Assembly: GCF_000513895.2 (NCBI RefSeq)
Contig: NZ_CP165783.1
Location: 1,426,001-1,490,000 of the forward strand
Source: Ensifer sp. WSM1721
GTDB lineage: Bacteria > Pseudomonadota > Alphaproteobacteria > Rhizobiales > Rhizobiaceae
Length of the DNA stretch: 64,000 nucleotides
Direction: 5' to 3'
The translations under genes were made by a program, and so were the position numbers. A model generated the notes under the pieces. It had not been told where the DNA came from. It made no database searches and saw only the letters and a list, made by a program, of their open reading frames with translations. Positions 49,035 to 56,272 of the stretch are shown piece by piece. How positions within the stretch are numbered: the stretch's first letter is position 1; each line of letters starts with the position of its first letter.

Positions 49035-49139
49035 CCTACAGCGCCGTGCGTCTTTTCAGACGCACAAAGGACGCTGTAGCACTTTGAATTGCTGCATGTT
49101 TTTGTCCTTAAATCGGGTACGATTTAAGGAAACATGCAG
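49035..49139 (+). repeat. Mosaic palindromic repeat, complete copy
   Basis: Two hairpin modules are present. The first is CTACAGCG...CGCTGTAG enclosing GTGCGTC/GACGCAC (49036-49079). The second is CTGCATGTTT...AAACATGCAG enclosing CCTTAAATCG/CGATTTAAGG (49092-49139). Other copies in this window keep one or both modules. This complete form matches what is known of rhizobial intergenic mosaic elements. It occupies part of the 470-bp gap before the giant repeat-protein gene; the remainder of that gap shows nothing clear. Confidence 0.75.
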
Positions 49140-49401
49140 TAGGCGCCAAGAAACTAGGGCCGTGCGGGCGCAGCCTCCGGTAGTAGCTGCAGCGTCGTGA
49201 AACTCAGGCTCGGGCAAGCCATGACCTTTAAAGCTCCAATTCCGTCCGATGGAGCTCCAATGGTCGATGCTGGTTCCAGCTTCCGGCCGGAGCAATGATG
49301 CCAGCAGCATGCTCAATGGCGTTGGAGCTGTCATAAGCACAGTTGCATCGCCCTTTCGTGCACTGGTGGCTCAACAAGCGTGCTGCGAAAGGCTTGCAGT
49401 T

Positions 49402-52400
49402 ATGACCGTTTCTTCCCTGAGCCCCAATCAGATCAGGTCTCTTCCGAGCACAGCGATCGCTGCCTGGAGCGCGGACGACGTCGCGGGGTTGACCCCGGCA
49501 CAGGTCAGTGCGCTCTCCTCTTCTCAGATTGCCGCCCTGAAAACCGACGGCGTCGCCAGACTGTCGGGCGCGCAGGTAAACGCGATACTGCCGAAGGCCA
49601 TTATCGGCCTGACTCTGGACCAACTGGCGGCCCTGACGACAGACAGAATCGCAAGCCTCGCCACGCCTCAGGTTGCCGCGCTCAGCACCACACAGATCAC
49701 GGCCCTGACGACGGCCCAGGCGGAGGCTCTGACGTCCTCTCAGGTTGGAAGCCTAAGCGCCGCGCAAATTGCGGCGCTTAGCACCGAAGACCTTGCGACC
49801 TTTTCGACGGCCGATATCGCAGCGATCAGCCCGGCGGCTACACGCGGGCTGTCCCTGGAAAAAATGGCCGGACTCACACTGGAGCAGATCGGCGCTCTGA
49901 CGCCGGCCCAGATTGCGGCGTTGAAGCCCGACCAGATCGCCGCTTTGAACCCTTCGCAGGTCGGCGCCTTAAATGCAGCGCAGATCCGCGCCTTGAGCGC
50001 GATCCAGGTTGCTGCTCTGACGACCACCAGTATCACCGCACTCTCCACCGAACAAGTTGCCGCCCTGAACACGAAAGCGGTTCCGGGCCTGACCGCCACC
50101 CAGATCGCTGCCCTGACGCCTAGCCAAATAGACGCCTTCTCCCCCGCACAAATTGGAGCCCTGACCGCGACGCAGGTCGCGGCGCTCAGCAGCGAAGATC
50201 TCGCGACCTTCTCGACTGCGGATATCGCGGCGATCAACACGAAAGCGATGCCAGGATTGTCCGCCGCCAGCACTGCTGCTCTCACGCCGGAGCAGATTTC
50301 CGCCTTGACGCCCGTCCAGATCGCCGCACTCAAGGCTAACCAGATCGGGGCTCTGACTCCGACGCAAGCAGGTGCGTTGACGACGGCGCAGATCCGCACC
50401 CTGAGTTCGATCCAGATCGGTGCCCTGACGACCGGCAGTATTGCGGCTCTCTCGGCAGAGCAGATTGCCGCCTTGAACACGAAGGCGATCGTGGGTCTGA
50501 CACCAACACAGATCGCAGGCTTCAGCACGGCCCAGGCGGAGGCCTTGACCACCTCTCAGGTCGCACGCCTGAGCGCGGCGCAGGTCGCGGCGCTCAGTTC
50601 CGACAATCTGGCAGCCTTCTCGTCCGATGATATTGCGGCGATCAGCCCGACCGCAATTTCCGGACTGTCCGGTGAGGATGTTGCCGCGCTCACCTTGGAG
50701 CAGGTTTCCGCCTTGACTCCGGGTCAGATTGCAGCGCTGAAGAGCAACCAGATCGCAGCTTTGACCCCGACACAGATCGACGTCTTGTCGGCGGCGCAGA
50801 TCCGCGCCCTGAGCGCGACGCAGCTTGCTGCTCTGCCGATCGACAGGATTGCCACACTCTCGAGCGACCAGATTGCTGCCCTCAACACCAGGGCGGTCGC
50901 CGGTCTAACGCCAGCGCAGATTGCGGCCTTGACCACCACTCAGACCGAGGCTTTGACCGCCGGTCAGATTGCGAATCTCGGCTCGAAGCAGGTCGCGGCG
51001 CTAAGCGCCGCAGCCTTAGAGACCTTTTCAGCGGCCGAGATCGCGGCGATCGGCGCGACGGCAATCTCGGGGCTGGGCCCGGAGACGCTTGCCACCCTCG
51101 CCCCGGAGCAGATCGCGGCCCTGACGCCGGCTCAAATCGCGGGCCTGAAGCCGAACCAGATCGGTGCTCTTGCCCCGTTTCAGATCGGGGCCTTGACGAC
51201 GGCGCAGGTCGGTGTCTTGAGCGCGGCTCAGGTTGCCGCTCTGACGGCCGACCAGATTGCGGCATTTTCGACCGACCAGATCGCCGCCCTGAGCGCGAAG
51301 GCCGTCGCCGGCCTGACTCCAACCCAGGTCGCAGCTTTGACCCCCGGCCAAGTAGACGCCTTCTCGGTCGCGCAAATCGGGGCTCTGGGCCTGGCGCAGG
51401 TGGCAGCGCTCACCTCGGAGCAGCTCGCGGCTTTTTCGGCAAACGAGATCGCGGCGATGGGGGTGAAGGCGATACCGGGACTGTCGAACGAAAATATTGC
51501 CGCACTCACACCAGACCAGGTCTCCGCTCTTACGTCGGGGCAGATCGCGGCATTGAAAGCCAGTCAGGTCGGGGCGCTCACGCCCGCGCAGGTCGACGCC
51601 TGGACGGCGACGCAGATCCGCGCCTTGAGCGCTGTACAGGTAGCCGCTCTGACGACCGACAGCGTTGCGGCACTCTCCAGCGAACAGATCGCCGCCTTGA
51701 ACACGAAGGCGGTCGGGGGTCTTACTGCCGCTCAGATCGCGGCCCTGACGGCTGTCCAGTTGGAGGCCTTGACCGCCTCTCAGGTGGCAGGGCTCGGTTC
51801 GGGACAAGTCGCGGCGCTTAGCGCCGAAGACTTGGCTAGCTTCTCGATCGATGAGATCGCGGCGCTCACCGCAACAGCAATTTCCGGACTCTCCGCCGAA
51901 ATTATTGCTGCACTTAGCTTGGAGCAGGTCTCTGCCCTGAAGCCGGTCCAAATCGCCGGACTGAAGGCCAGCCAGATCGCGGCCTTGACGCCCGCTCAGG
52001 TCGCGGCGCTGACGACTGCGCAGATCGGCGCCTTGACTGCTCTCCAAGTTGCCGCTCTGACGCCTGACAGTGTTGCGGCACTCTCTACCGCCCAGATCGC
52101 CGCCCTCAACACGAAGACGGTCCCGGGCTTGACCGCCGGCCAGATCGCAGCCTTGAACCCCAGTCAGGTTGACACCCTCTCCAGCGCGCAAATCGGTGCG
52201 CTCACCTCGACCCAGATCGCGGCGCTTACCACCGCACATCTGGCGACGTTCTCGACGGCTGACGTCGCCGCGATCAGCGCGGCCGCAATTTCGGGGCTCT
52301 CCAACGAAAATGTTGCCGCACTCACGATCGAGCAGGTTTCCGCCCTGACGCCGGCTCAGATCACGGGCCTGAAGCCCGCTCAAATCGCTGCCCTCACCCC

Positions 52401-53643
52401 TTCACAGATGAATAGCTTGACGGCAACGCAGATCGGGGCCCTGACCGCGACGCAGGTTGCGAGCCTCAGCAATGAAGAAATTGCTGCACTCTCCACCGAC
52501 CAGATTGCCGCTCTCGATGCGAAGGCGGTCGCGGGTCTGACCGTTGCCCAGATTGCAGCGCTCACCACCGTTCAGATCGACGCCTTCTCCACCGCTCAGA
52601 TCGGAGCACTCACCTCGGGGCAGATCGCGGCGCTTACCAACCAACACCTGGCAACTCTCTCGCCGGCCGATATCGCGGCAATCAGCACGGCCGCGATTTC
52701 GGGACTCTCCGCCGAAGGCGTGGCGGCGCTCACCTTGGAGCAGGTGTCCGCCATGACGTCCGGCCAGATCGCCGCATTGAAGGCAAGCCAGATCGAGGCG
52801 CTTAGTCCATCGCAGGTGGGCACCTTCACGGCAGCACAGATCCGCTCCTTGAGCGCTACCCAGGTAGCCGCGCTGACGATCGGCAGCATCGCTGCGCTCT
52901 CGACCGACCAGGTTGCCGCCATCGACACGAAGGCGATCACAGGACTTACTCCCGGACAGATCGCCGCCCTCACGCCCAGCCAGATCGATGCTTTCTCCAC
53001 GGCGCAGATCGGAGCGCTTACCTCCACACAGGTCGCGGCGCTCGGCGCGGAAGACGTCGCAACCTTCTCGACCGCGGATATCGGCGCGATCAGCGCGACA
53101 GCCATAACGGGATTGTCTCCCGAAAATATCGCCGCGCTCGACCTTGAACAGACGGCGGCCTTGAAGCCGGCGCAGGTCGCAAGCTTCGGCTATTATCAGC
53201 TGCGTGCTTTGAGTTCCGACCAGCTTGGTGTCTTCAGCCCGGCACAGATCGGCGCCCTCAACGCACTGCAGGTCGCAGCTTTGGGTACCGACAAGATCAC
53301 CGCACTCTCCGCCGATCAGATTGCCGCCCTCGATCCGAAGGCGGTTGCGGGCCTCACCGCTGCACAGATCGGGGCCTTGACCACTGCTCAAGCCGAGGCC
53401 CTGACCCCTTCACAGGTTGCAAGCCTCAGCGCAGCGCAAGTCGAGGCGCTGGGCACAGAGGATCTCGCGACCTTCTCGACGGGCGATATTGCGGCAATCA
53501 GGCCGGCCGCAATCTCCGGCCTGTCCAGGACAGATATTCTAAGCCTCAGGCGCGATCAGTTGCAGGCCATCACCACACCGCAGGTCGAGGCGATGGATTC
53601 CAGGCAAATCGCGGCAATAATCGCGGCCTATGAGGCATTCTGA
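49402..53643 (+). CDS. Giant octapeptide-repeat protein (ALTxxQIA units)
   Basis: This is a 1413-residue protein of unknown function, made almost wholly of eight-residue units with consensus ALTxxQIA. Units are ordered into a 17-unit super-repeat (136 residues, 408 bp). Equivalent codons recur at 49489, 49897, 50305, 50713, 51121, 51529, 51937, 52345, 52753 and 53161, exactly 408 apart, so there are ten blocks without any insertion or deletion. Block one is divergent, and a tail of about 26 residues ends EAF. There is no signal peptide or membrane segment. Composition is rich in Ala, Leu, Thr, Ser, Gln and Ile, almost free of Cys and aromatics, and acidic. ATG 49402 (AAAGGC upstream) is preferred to an earlier ATG at 49249 without a ribosome site. 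Confidence 0.88.
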   Translation: MTVSSLSPNQIRSLPSTAIAAWSADDVAGLTPAQVSALSSSQIAALKTDGVARLSGAQVNAILPKAIIGLTLDQLAALTTDRIASLATPQVAALSTTQITALTTAQAEALTSSQVGSLSAAQIAALSTEDLATFSTADIAAISPAATRGLSLEKMAGLTLEQIGALTPAQIAALKPDQIAALNPSQVGALNAAQIRALSAIQVAALTTTSITALSTEQVAALNTKAVPGLTATQIAALTPSQIDAFSPAQIGALTATQVAALSSEDLATFSTADIAAINTKAMPGLSAASTAALTPEQISALTPVQIAALKANQIGALTPTQAGALTTAQIRTLSSIQIGALTTGSIAALSAEQIAALNTKAIVGLTPTQIAGFSTAQAEALTTSQVARLSAAQVAALSSDNLAAFSSDDIAAISPTAISGLSGEDVAALTLEQVSALTPGQIAALKSNQIAALTPTQIDVLSAAQIRALSATQLAALPIDRIATLSSDQIAALNTRAVAGLTPAQIAALTTTQTEALTAGQIANLGSKQVAALSAAALETFSAAEIAAIGATAISGLGPETLATLAPEQIAALTPAQIAGLKPNQIGALAPFQIGALTTAQVGVLSAAQVAALTADQIAAFSTDQIAALSAKAVAGLTPTQVAALTPGQVDAFSVAQIGALGLAQVAALTSEQLAAFSANEIAAMGVKAIPGLSNENIAALTPDQVSALTSGQIAALKASQVGALTPAQVDAWTATQIRALSAVQVAALTTDSVAALSSEQIAALNTKAVGGLTAAQIAALTAVQLEALTASQVAGLGSGQVAALSAEDLASFSIDEIAALTATAISGLSAEIIAALSLEQVSALKPVQIAGLKASQIAALTPAQVAALTTAQIGALTALQVAALTPDSVAALSTAQIAALNTKTVPGLTAGQIAALNPSQVDTLSSAQIGALTSTQIAALTTAHLATFSTADVAAISAAAISGLSNENVAALTIEQVSALTPAQITGLKPAQIAALTPSQMNSLTATQIGALTATQVASLSNEEIAALSTDQIAALDAKAVAGLTVAQIAALTTVQIDAFSTAQIGALTSGQIAALTNQHLATLSPADIAAISTAAISGLSAEGVAALTLEQVSAMTSGQIAALKASQIEALSPSQVGTFTAAQIRSLSATQVAALTIGSIAALSTDQVAAIDTKAITGLTPGQIAALTPSQIDAFSTAQIGALTSTQVAALGAEDVATFSTADIGAISATAITGLSPENIAALDLEQTAALKPAQVASFGYYQLRALSSDQLGVFSPAQIGALNALQVAALGTDKITALSADQIAALDPKAVAGLTAAQIGALTTAQAEALTPSQVASLSAAQVEALGTEDLATFSTGDIAAIRPAAISGLSRTDILSLRRDQLQAITTPQVEAMDSRQIAAIIAAYEAF
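49486..53565 (+). repeat. Ten tandem 408-bp coding super-repeats
   Basis: The blocks lie inside the octapeptide-repeat gene. Each block encodes 17 octads. Landmark octads keep their place in every block from 49894 to 53157: unit 2 begins ALK or GLK, unit 8 is mostly ALNTKAVx (lacking the usual Gln), unit 13 is ALSxEDLA-like, unit 15 AISxxAIS-like and unit 17 ALTLEQVS-like. DNA copies have diverged by substitution but not in length. Confidence 0.9.
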
Positions 53644-54157: not shown

Positions 54158-54492
54158 GTCTTGCTCTCGATTTGTGCTTGAGGAAAATTGCGGTCGCAGG
54201 CCTGAGAGACCCTTTGCACCGGGCGATCTGCCGCCATGCCGGCAGCAATGTCAGCAAAAACCTAGAGCACCGGACACAAATGTAAACCGCAGGCGACGCG
54301 GATGCGTCTGGGCACAAGCAGGACTCGCGGGCGATGGCATCGATACGACTCATAAACTAATCGTGACCTCAGCAGGTCTTCAAACGATCGTGTACGTATG
54401 ATTAACGGACGTTTAACGCCTTCTCGGGAAACGTGCGTAGTAGTTTTTGCTTGCAGCTTTCTAACTCGATTCCAACCGACAGAGCCTCCAGC
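54158..54492. other. Divergent promoter region
   Basis: This gap lies between slyD-like and L,D-transpeptidase genes. It becomes more AT-rich near 54345-54475. I see no gene, RNA or strong palindrome; both promoters must lie here. Confidence 0.4.
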
Positions 54493-55572
54493 ATGCGTTT
54501 GCTTTTCAAACTCGGCCATCCAGCCCTAGCCGCGTCCCGCCGTATTCTGTGTCGCGCCCTCGCGATCGCGGCGATCGGTGCCGCGTTGTCCGGATGCATC
54601 GGCATGGGCCTGGAGGATCTATCCAAGGCACCGCCGCAGCTCTCGCGGAAGGTCGTGGCAGAGATGTCGAAAAAGGGGATGAAGCCGGAAAGTCCGGTGC
54701 TCGTCCGCATCTTCAAACAGGAAAGCGAGCTCGAAGTCTGGAAGGTCGACAGGACCGGCACCTATGCGCTGTTCAAGACCTATCCGATGTGCCGATGGTC
54801 GGGCAAGCTCGGGCCGAAGAGGAAGGACGGCGACCGTCAGGCACCTGAGGGCTTCTACCACGTCTCCGCCCGCATGCTTAATCCGAACTCGCAATACTAC
54901 GTCTCCTTCAACCTCGGCTATCCGAACCGGCTGGAATCCGCCTTGGGGTACTCGGGGGAGGCACTGATGGTGCACGGGGCCTGTTCGTCCGCCGGCTGCT
55001 ATGCCATGACCGACCAGGGTGTGGGCGAGATCTACGCCATCGTTCAGAAGGCGCTTGCGGGCGGGCAGGAGCGTTTCCAGGTCCAGGCCTATCCGTTCCG
55101 GATGACGGCGGAAAACATGGCGCTGCACAAGGGTGATGAGAACATGCCGTTCTGGCGGACCCTGAAGGAGGGATACGATTGGTTCGAGTTGACCAGACGG
55201 CAGCCCAAGGTGTCGGCCTGCGGACGTCGTTATGTCTTCAACGCCGAGTTCGAGGGTGGCGAGCCGCGTGATCCCCTCGCCGCATGTCCGGCCGTAGTGA
55301 CGCAGCCCGAGCCGCAGTTCGTCGCGAAGCTCGACGCGGAAAGGCAGAAGGTCGATGCGGCGCTCAAAGAGGATAAAGCGGTTCCGGTGAGTGCCTATGT
55401 CGACGGCGGCATGCATCCAAGCTTCCGCGAGCTCCTGAAGAAGAACGGTCCCGAAAAGATGGCCGCGACCATCTCCCAGACGAAATATCCGGTCAGCCGG
55501 CCGGACGCAGCCTTGGCTGATCCGTTTTCCGGATCGACGAAATGGAACGCGAGGACTTCAATTGTTCAATGA
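54493..55572 (+). CDS. L,D-transpeptidase lipoprotein (YafK family)
   Basis: This cell-wall enzyme of the YkuD fold probably cross-links or anchors to peptidoglycan. A lipoprotein signal is visible: hydrophobic LAIAAIGAALSGC with the lipobox ending at Cys about residue 35. The catalytic motif is HGACSSAGCYAM near residue 165 (His and nucleophilic Cys). The upstream region KVDRTGTYALFKTYPM fits YafK-type proteins. The length is 359 residues, and the last 120 form a separate charged region without a known fold. Its stop lies inside the start region of the next transpeptidase gene. Confidence 0.88.
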   Translation: MRLLFKLGHPALAASRRILCRALAIAAIGAALSGCIGMGLEDLSKAPPQLSRKVVAEMSKKGMKPESPVLVRIFKQESELEVWKVDRTGTYALFKTYPMCRWSGKLGPKRKDGDRQAPEGFYHVSARMLNPNSQYYVSFNLGYPNRLESALGYSGEALMVHGACSSAGCYAMTDQGVGEIYAIVQKALAGGQERFQVQAYPFRMTAENMALHKGDENMPFWRTLKEGYDWFELTRRQPKVSACGRRYVFNAEFEGGEPRDPLAACPAVVTQPEPQFVAKLDAERQKVDAALKEDKAVPVSAYVDGGMHPSFRELLKKNGPEKMAATISQTKYPVSRPDAALADPFSGSTKWNARTSIVQ

Positions 55573-56272
55573 GATGTTCAGCCGCCGTGCGTTCATGTTC
55601 GGTGCGGGCAGCGTAGCGGTGACGACGCTGGCGGGCTGTACGACGACGCCCGCGCCGAGGGTCGCTGCCGCACCGCTGCCCGTAGACACGTCCCTCTATG
55701 CAAGCATGTACGGGCCCCAGCCGAACGAGCTGTTCCCGCTGCCGGCGGTACCCTATGAGAAGATCGAACCCCGCTTCTACCGGCAGATGGTCGCAAACCC
55801 GACCGGTGAGCGTCCGGGAACGCTGGTCGTCGATACCGCGAACCATTTCCTCTACCTGACCTACGAGAACGGTCAGGCCATGCGCTACGGTGTCGGCCTC
55901 GGTCGCGCCGGGTTCGAGTGGGCCGGCAGGGGTGTCATCCAATACAAGCGGCAATGGCCGCGCTGGACACCCCCTGACGAGATGGTCGCGCGTCAGCCCG
56001 ACCTCCAGCCCTACAGCATCGCAAATGGCGGCATGGAGCCCGGATTGACCAATCCGCTCGGAGCGCGCGCCCTTTATATATTCCAGAACGGCGTGGACAC
56101 GCTCTACCGCATTCACGGATCGCCCGAATGGTGGACGATCGGCAAGTCCGTGTCTTCGGGCTGCGTCCGCATGATCAACCAGGATGTGGTCGATCTCTAC
56201 AACCGGGTTCCCAACGGCACCCCGATCGTCGTCACCAGCCTTGCCGGAGCCGAACTGGAATACGCGGCGTAG
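55562..56272 (+). CDS. L,D-transpeptidase (ErfK/YbiS type) with Tat/lipoprotein signal
   Basis: This second cell-wall L,D-transpeptidase has a different subfamily layout. A signal with SRRAFMFGAGS (twin arginine) and lipobox LAGC directs it to the periplasmic membrane face. The YkuD domain spans about residues 80-225, with catalytic HGSPEWWTIGKS and SSGCVRM. The length is 236 residues from TTG at 55562 (GAGGAC upstream), overlapping the previous gene; ATG at 55574 is an alternative. The two genes are probably coupled. Confidence 0.9.
   Translation: MFNEMFSRRAFMFGAGSVAVTTLAGCTTTPAPRVAAAPLPVDTSLYASMYGPQPNELFPLPAVPYEKIEPRFYRQMVANPTGERPGTLVVDTANHFLYLTYENGQAMRYGVGLGRAGFEWAGRGVIQYKRQWPRWTPPDEMVARQPDLQPYSIANGGMEPGLTNPLGARALYIFQNGVDTLYRIHGSPEWWTIGKSVSSGCVRMINQDVVDLYNRVPNGTPIVVTSLAGAELEYAA

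Follow-up and report, generated by a model that had tools for sequence, protein, structure and literature searches.

We describe a giant repeat protein encoded in a 64,000-nucleotide stretch of the Ensifer sp. WSM1721 genome (hereafter the window; contig NZ_CP165783.1 of assembly GCF_000513895.2, positions 1,426,001 to 1,490,000), and propose that it forms a long helical screw with one acidic side. Its gene, a stop-free open reading frame on the forward strand at window positions 49402..53643, encodes 1413 residues that consist throughout of octads of the form L-T/S-x-x-Q-I/V-x-x, about 176 of them, with 0 cysteines, 88 Asp and Glu residues and 43 Lys and Arg residues. In the proposed model, each octad would fold into one short helix, and successive helices would wind round an axis at about 3.4 octads (27 residues) per turn, giving an uninterrupted alpha-screw. 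Seventeen octads would close five turns almost exactly, placing units 17 apart on the same side. The protein would comprise about 52 turns and, if each turn is taken to rise about 1 nm, would build a rod of roughly 50 nm. We infer the export, glycosylation and function of this rod, and consider it probable that it reaches the cell surface and that its relatives are often glycosylated before export.

Octad register, predicted fold and proposed screw pitch

The octads keep a strict register. The N-terminal part (residues 1-132; 49402..49797) is built of the same octads as the rest, in register with the later blocks, and many relatives open in a similar way. Nine complete blocks of 136 residues follow, each of 17 octads and 408 bp (residues 133-1356; 49798..53469), and each can be read as five screw turns. 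The protein ends in a partial block (residues 1357-1413; 53470..53640), and many Rhizobiaceae relatives have similar C-terminal ends. When the octads are laid out, the register runs from the N-terminus to residue 1413 with zero insertions or deletions. Lags of 136, 272 and 408 give a protein self-identity of 0.57; the remaining multiples of 8 average 0.36, and all other lags 0.08. The best lags in the DNA are 816, 1224 and 408 (0.65-0.66). A preliminary description of this DNA had claimed a strict 17-unit, 136-residue register, and the exact period and unbroken octads bear this out. An alternative upstream ATG at 49249 would give 1464 residues; the start at 49402 appears preferable because an M-T-x-x-S-S-L-S-like opening is common among relatives.

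The same description had recognised no named family, which the profile search overturns. The protein matches Pfam PF20080, the ALTTAQ repeat, at 792.5 bits (curated cut-off 26.4), in 54 stretches of a 38-position repeat model. All 45 PF20080 matches in its own genome fall inside this single gene.

AlphaFold2 predicts one short helix per octad in both segments modelled, namely residues 541-948 (predicted local distance difference test, pLDDT, 95.4; predicted template modelling score, pTM, 0.81; with an alignment of three rows of the protein itself) and residues 1085-1413 (pLDDT 95.2, pTM 0.84; from the single sequence). Values of about 95 in both favour a structured rather than a disordered chain, in keeping with the solenoid first described. 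In the second model the C-terminus, where a type I export signal would lie, is predicted to be helical, and its 13-residue terminal helix (about residues 1400-1412) looks like a cap.

The pitch was read from 54 ALTTAQ frames from Rhizobiaceae and from plasmid loci of Cereibacter, Thioclava, Rhodovastum and a Pseudomonas, which range from 701 to 2913 residues, the shortest being perhaps partial or broken. Among self-similarity periods of 2.02-6 octads, the strongest lay at 3.33-3.40 octads in 34 of the 54 frames and at 2.42-2.46 in the other 20, the window protein included; under once-per-octad sampling, 2.43 octads is the second harmonic of 3.4. For the window protein itself the strongest period is 2.42, and harmonics 2, 7 and 5 of 17 are the top three of eight. 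Octad likeness across the 54 frames is greatest at lags such as 7, 10, 17, 27, 44, 61, 71, 78, 88, 95 and 105, and in the mean over 53 frames lags 7, 10, 17, 27, 34 and 44 exceed their neighbours. The proposed geometry would explain the exact 17-octad super-repeat, because units separated by five turns face the same side, and likewise the weaker likeness at 7 and 10 octads, because these are about two and three turns.

The distribution of acidic residues, a measure independent of self-similarity, agrees with the same pitch. In 49 of the 54 proteins, the number of acidic residues per octad has a period of 3.36-3.41 octads that exceeds all 60 shuffles; for the window protein the period is 3.40, with a power of 33.2 where the strongest of its 60 shuffles reaches 11.9. 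On a wheel plot, its acidic octads occupy eight adjacent positions (105-254 degrees) at 0.45-1.30 acids per octad, and the other nine positions hold 0-0.30, so that one side of the rod would be acidic. Among arrays linked to genes for GT41 glycosyltransferases, which are treated below, 53 of 62 scored have an acidic period within 3.33-3.45 and above 25 shuffles (arrays under 60 octads were left out, so that 62 of 73 were scored), and beyond Rhizobiaceae 22 of 27 scored have a period of 3.39-3.45. In 14 of these 27 non-Rhizobiaceae arrays the top self-similarity lag is 24 or 48 octads, and in the remainder it is 7, 10, 14, 17, 31, 41, 55, 58 or 65 octads; at 3.43 octads per turn, 24 octads make seven turns. 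What appears to be conserved across lineages is the period of about 3.4 octads and not the 17-unit length, 17 being one closure that is common in Rhizobiaceae.

The order of the 17 units is also conserved in relatives: in 44 of 52 scored related proteins the match to the window order is better than in every one of 200 shuffles. An earlier register comparison (45 of 52) gave some proteins the wrong octad phase, and the figure of 44 is the one relied on. In both comparisons, the unit order of the window protein is absent from the proteins of Cereibacter, Rhodovastum and the Pseudomonas plasmid. Strong selection on solenoid length, as first suggested, holds in part: total length varies across the range given for the 54 frames, but the angular register is kept.

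Several points weigh against this account of the pitch. Many of the 54 frames are close kin, and the five exceptions to the acidic period have their maxima at 8.50, 3.30 (not significant), 4.85, 2.45 and 17.10. In a wider set of 121 proteins, comprising the 120 listed protein-search matches and the window protein, 42 could be scored and 5 peak within 3.3-3.5, and the summed self-similarity peak at 3.39 (0.058) lies below the highest shuffled value (0.072). A significant acidic period is present in 12 of the 120 listed matches, and in just 4 within the band. Short or indel-broken arrays are a likely explanation for the weak period in this set; the pitch rule is not demonstrated for the widest family. 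Further, an alias of about 1.4 octads per turn is indistinguishable from 3.4 when sampled once per octad, and the pitch is read from a sequence period rather than from model coordinates, the period being presumably the physical pitch.

A GT41 glycosyltransferase partner in relatives

In other Ensifer genomes, ALTTAQ genes adjoin a gene for a tetratricopeptide repeat (TPR) protein of 684-699 residues with a GT41 domain (PF13844, E-value about 1e-72). In a draw of 247 Rhizobiaceae genomes, the linked GT41 was present at 59% identity or more in 23, all 23 of which are among the ALTTAQ-bearing genomes, and in at least 18 of the 23 the GT41 and ALTTAQ genes lie within a few kb of each other on one contig. 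A further 38 genomes had a weaker GT41 only (44% or less), and at least 4 of these carry ALTTAQ.

GTDB contigs were then scanned with an alignment of GT41 enzymes from ALTTAQ loci that included no ALTTAQ sequence. The loci studied are the best 80 of at least 573 confirmed relatives, and 73 of these 80 have an ALTTAQ frame within 10 kb of the GT41 gene, arrays cut by contig ends being counted, against 0 of 80 in a reversed-sequence control. Both this choice of loci and the origin of the query, which makes close relatives partly circular, count against the strength of the association. The 33 loci outside Rhizobiaceae are a fairer test, and 31 of them have an ALTTAQ frame. Some loci look like the same contigs fetched twice (L103/L106, L102/L119), and the period and GT41-array sets are not independent of each other. 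The nearest array lies upstream on the same strand in 50 loci (within 500 bp in 48), divergently in 18 and downstream in 5; it is absent from 7, two of which sit on contigs under 7 kb.

By record title, the GT41 hosts include Rhizobiaceae, Methylocystis, Methylobacterium, Azospirillum, Asticcacaulis and an Opitutaceae bacterium. The genes of a locus titled Marinimicrobia (L157) are nearly the same as those of one titled Rhodospirillaceae (L172), and the Marinimicrobia label may be a binning error. Named plasmids of Cereibacter, Rhodovastum, a Rhizobium and a Pseudomonas carry GT41 next to ALTTAQ; in a Thioclava, no GT41 was found within 10 kb of ALTTAQ. Searches of 126 loci by tblastn, with Pfam for part of them, found UDP-galactopyranose mutase in 53 and an ATP-binding cassette (ABC) transporter together with HlyD in 7, these being loci of Cereibacter, the Pseudomonas plasmid, an Ensifer, a Methylobacterium, a Roseomonas and two metagenome bins.

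Two further kinds of gene were observed at such loci. One encodes a protein of about 417 residues that matches PF12248 weakly (E-value about 4e-8; L031, 9350-10603, and L083, 4850-6103); it recurs at many loci with GT41 and UDP-galactopyranose mutase, has relatives in 26 of the 126 loci, and is perhaps a further glycan enzyme. Sulfotransferase genes lie beside ALTTAQ-GT41 loci in Lichenifustis (a TPR-sulfotransferase; L163, 11913-14117) and, by annotation, in Cereibacter (L081, 1-1377), and the proposed sugars may be sulfated.

We propose that the rod is stiff and made in the cytoplasm, and that in relatives with a neighbouring GT41 it would be glycosylated there by that enzyme before export. 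Export would proceed without a cleaved signal, perhaps through a type I system, and the rod would act at the surface or in the matrix, in adhesion, spacing or lateral packing through its faces. In a broader form of this proposal, ALTTAQ screws would be undescribed, widespread exported glycoprotein rods, decorated in the cytoplasm by a TPR-GT41 enzyme and exported by a type I system. Their register (about 3.4 octads per turn, closing at 17, 24 and others such as 31) would be selected to align faces such as the acidic stripe over tens of nm, and the window protein would be an enzyme-less offshoot. We see the chances of this broader form as evenly balanced.

Two known systems appear to follow a comparable logic, with substrates of a different fold. 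In FlmG from Caulobacter, TPRs are joined to a GT-B glycosyltransferase that O-glycosylates flagellin in the cytoplasm (PMC7591256). FlmG resembles the proposed ALTTAQ partner as a TPR glycosyltransferase acting on a filament protein, but its substrate is a flagellin, exported through the flagellum, and ALTTAQ proteins are not flagellins. HMW1C is a soluble GT41-family enzyme that adds hexoses to the large HMW1 adhesin; enzymes of its type modify Asn, and in them another N-terminal domain replaces the TPRs (PMC10507012). The likeness lies in a GT41-family enzyme paired with a large, here putative, surface protein. In contrast to HMW1C, the ALTTAQ-linked GT41 enzymes have TPRs, and the two tested fall far below the NCBIfam N-glycosyltransferase cut-off. 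N-x-S/T sites number 0 in the window protein and 0 to 9 in five other ALTTAQ proteins. In the open-access literature searched, the ALTTAQ-GT41 gene pairing was not found described, and no paper was found linking GT41 to type I secretion.

A more specific idea concerns octad position 3: its Ser or Thr would be the residue to which the partner GT41 adds sugar, and the window branch would have lost this acceptor, to Ala or Pro, together with the enzyme. Position-3 Ser/Thr has a median of 0.76 in proteins with GT41 in the genome or locus (n=40, range 0.50-0.96) and 0.34 in those without (n=14, range 0.24-0.64); whole-protein Ser/Thr is 0.25 against 0.20, and position 4 shows no difference. However, by unit order most of the GT41-less proteins belong to a single branch and cannot count as independent points, and the absence of GT41 in Thioclava was judged from its flanks alone. 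Low values also occur in GT41-linked arrays of Rhizobiaceae (0.20 in L143, 0.42 in L151), and beyond Rhizobiaceae position-3 Ser/Thr is below 0.5 in 12 of 31 GT41-linked arrays (lowest 0.29, in L155). We regard the acceptor idea as doubtful.

This interpretation replaces an unexplained repeat with a geometric rule, in which super-repeat lengths would be whole-turn closures of one screw pitch, and it gives the PF20080 family a concrete hypothesis and a partner gene. The link to that partner is observed mainly in Alphaproteobacteria and also on a Pseudomonas plasmid; an Opitutaceae bacterium and a Marinimicrobia-labelled metagenome bin are placed by their record titles alone. If the interpretation is true, bacteria own a modular, glycosylated, one-sided rod that is programmable by octad order, with relevance to rhizobial surface biology and protein design.

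Competing explanations and selection

One alternative is a cytoplasmic or envelope scaffold, in which the screw would bind proteins or nucleic acids along its faces inside the cell, like ARM/HEAT solenoids, and would never be exported. We think such a role for the window protein unlikely. In its favour, no secretion gene lies among the seven nearest genes of the giant gene, a GT41 enzyme could equally act on a cytoplasmic target, and the fold matches listed are helical solenoids, with mesothelin and ARM-repeat proteins among them. Other observations speak against the exported rod. No GT41 is found among those seven genes, and the genome has no GT41 of the ALTTAQ-linked subfamily at an E-value of 1e-20, the single weak GT41 match covering 100 residues at 1.7e-4. 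A type I system does lie about 950 kb from the giant gene; its transporter, which HlyD follows, is the one in this genome that best matches that of the Methylobacterium (37% identity). This is a separate type I locus, and nothing ties the window protein to it. On the other side, several distant homologues are fused to PF05860, PF00353 and PF13018, which we take to be domains of exported proteins (two-partner secretion, RTX and autotransporter signal). The ABC transporter and HlyD genes in 7 of 126 loci of relatives also speak for export, as does the count of 0 cysteines in all six ALTTAQ proteins checked.

Under the exported-rod proposal, the window protein belongs to a branch that seems to have lost, or never had, the GT41 enzyme. 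The linked GT41 subfamily is missing from the genomes that encode the proteins closest to it in unit order (register 0.57 or more among the rows listed: L034, L066-L068, L070-L072 and L077), although the wider, earlier comparison included one protein from a GT41-bearing genome at 0.60 (L073).

A by-product of tandem duplication without selected function, its 17-octad copies spread by unequal crossing-over and tolerated, is a very improbable origin for the array. Repeat genes are prone to such spread, and the family is patchy: at least 15 of 33 genomes of the genus carry it, as do at least 42 of the 247 Rhizobiaceae genomes drawn (match at E-value 0.001 or below, some weak). The gene itself, however, is under purifying selection. 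Its congeneric orthologue has the same coding-sequence length from the same start and matches residues 1-1413 at 94% identity, with no indel and a ratio of non-synonymous to synonymous substitution (dN/dS) of 0.25. The nine complete blocks differ from one another by mean proportions of 0.55 at synonymous and 0.24 at non-synonymous sites, from which the block duplications look old and the protein sequence constrained. At least five Rhizobiaceae genomes outside the genus hold matches of 48-52% identity over nearly the whole length, and neutrality would not be expected to keep an acidic stripe.

The preliminary description had also likened the start of each unit to that of TAL-effector repeats, and a TAL-effector-like, DNA-reading or host-directed protein can be dismissed almost entirely: LTPxQ is locally similar to the TAL repeat start, but TAL effectors have hairpin repeats of 33-35 residues with a variable residue pair, while here AlphaFold2 gives one short helix per octad and self-identity gives periods of 8 and 136, no TAL family is among the Pfam or NCBIfam matches, and the listed structure matches include no TAL entry (alone no proof).

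Nearest known proteins and genomic setting

A solved 120-residue chain, HeliScrew4 (PDB 9zem), contains octads such as TPEQIAAL and matches the window protein at an E-value of 1.5e-19 (73 bits). It differs in being merely 120 residues long, and the comparison is by sequence, not structure. Its name and regular sequence indicate that it is perhaps a designed or consensus protein. Its absence from the structure-search matches is a further point against the screw.

The best Foldseek match is mesothelin (E-value 2.9e-5), and the others listed are ARM-repeat and further helical solenoids; a Foldseek search against viral models gave only matches of low template modelling score. Mesothelin is a right-handed solenoid in which 24 short helices form nine layers, and each of its repeats, 27-37 residues long, makes one full circle (PMC10035497). 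It is ARM/HEAT-like, and the length of these full-circle repeats is close to the 27 residues per turn proposed for the octad screw.

Other candidates were rejected. Leucine-rich repeat (LRR) proteins form a strand-containing solenoid, and neither AlphaFold2 model contains a strand; PF23952 (LRR_EndoS) exceeds its cut-off (47.9 against 27.9 bits), but none of its individual stretches does, and its score lies far below that of PF20080; LRR proteins give weak PDB sequence matches (best E-value 1.5e-4). CAAP1 and Sigma70_r4_2 pass Pfam cut-offs over the whole protein with no single stretch passing, and were taken as composition effects. The NCBIfam search returned a single match, far below cut-off. 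Open-access literature searches found no described function for PF20080, their matches to that accession being on unrelated subjects, and no paper on ALTTAQ or HeliScrew; for octapeptide-repeat solenoids they returned mostly prion or neurodegeneration papers.

ALTTAQ proteins carry some doubtful names, among them 'heme utilization protein' (Cereibacter; L081, 8776-13461), 'trimeric autotransporter adhesin' and 'transcriptional antiterminator Rof'. Some proteins that contain arrays of the repeat have calpain/C2-type protease domains (PF00648) and others G8 domains (PF24606, PF10162), which suggests other uses of the same repeat. Caulobacter vibrioides alone among 14 named control genomes gave a PF20080 match, and would be convenient for laboratory work on the family.

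By Pfam, the seven nearest genes of the giant gene encode an oxidoreductase, a MarR/GNAT protein, a short-chain dehydrogenase, an FKBP isomerase, two YkuD proteins and a GntR regulator. The earlier observation that no partner or secretion gene lies nearby stands for these seven genes of the window, but not for relatives, given the GT41 and transporter loci described above. The FKBP gene and the giant gene are convergent, and downstream of the FKBP gene the two YkuD (L,D-transpeptidase) genes lie side by side at window 54433-56272. At the type I locus elsewhere in the genome (L189, 71-8926; contig 2 near 527 kb, the same contig as the window), a 1698-residue protein that has no Pfam match and looks repetitive on inspection precedes an ABC transporter, which carries a C39-like domain, and an HlyD adaptor. 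About 260 bp upstream of the giant gene lies a 48-bp palindrome (window 49092-49139), with a core of CCTTAAATCG, 4 nt and CGATTTAAGG. This core occurs at 183 places in the genome with up to 2 mismatches, against 0 for a control, and by this count the palindrome appears to be a dispersed palindromic element.

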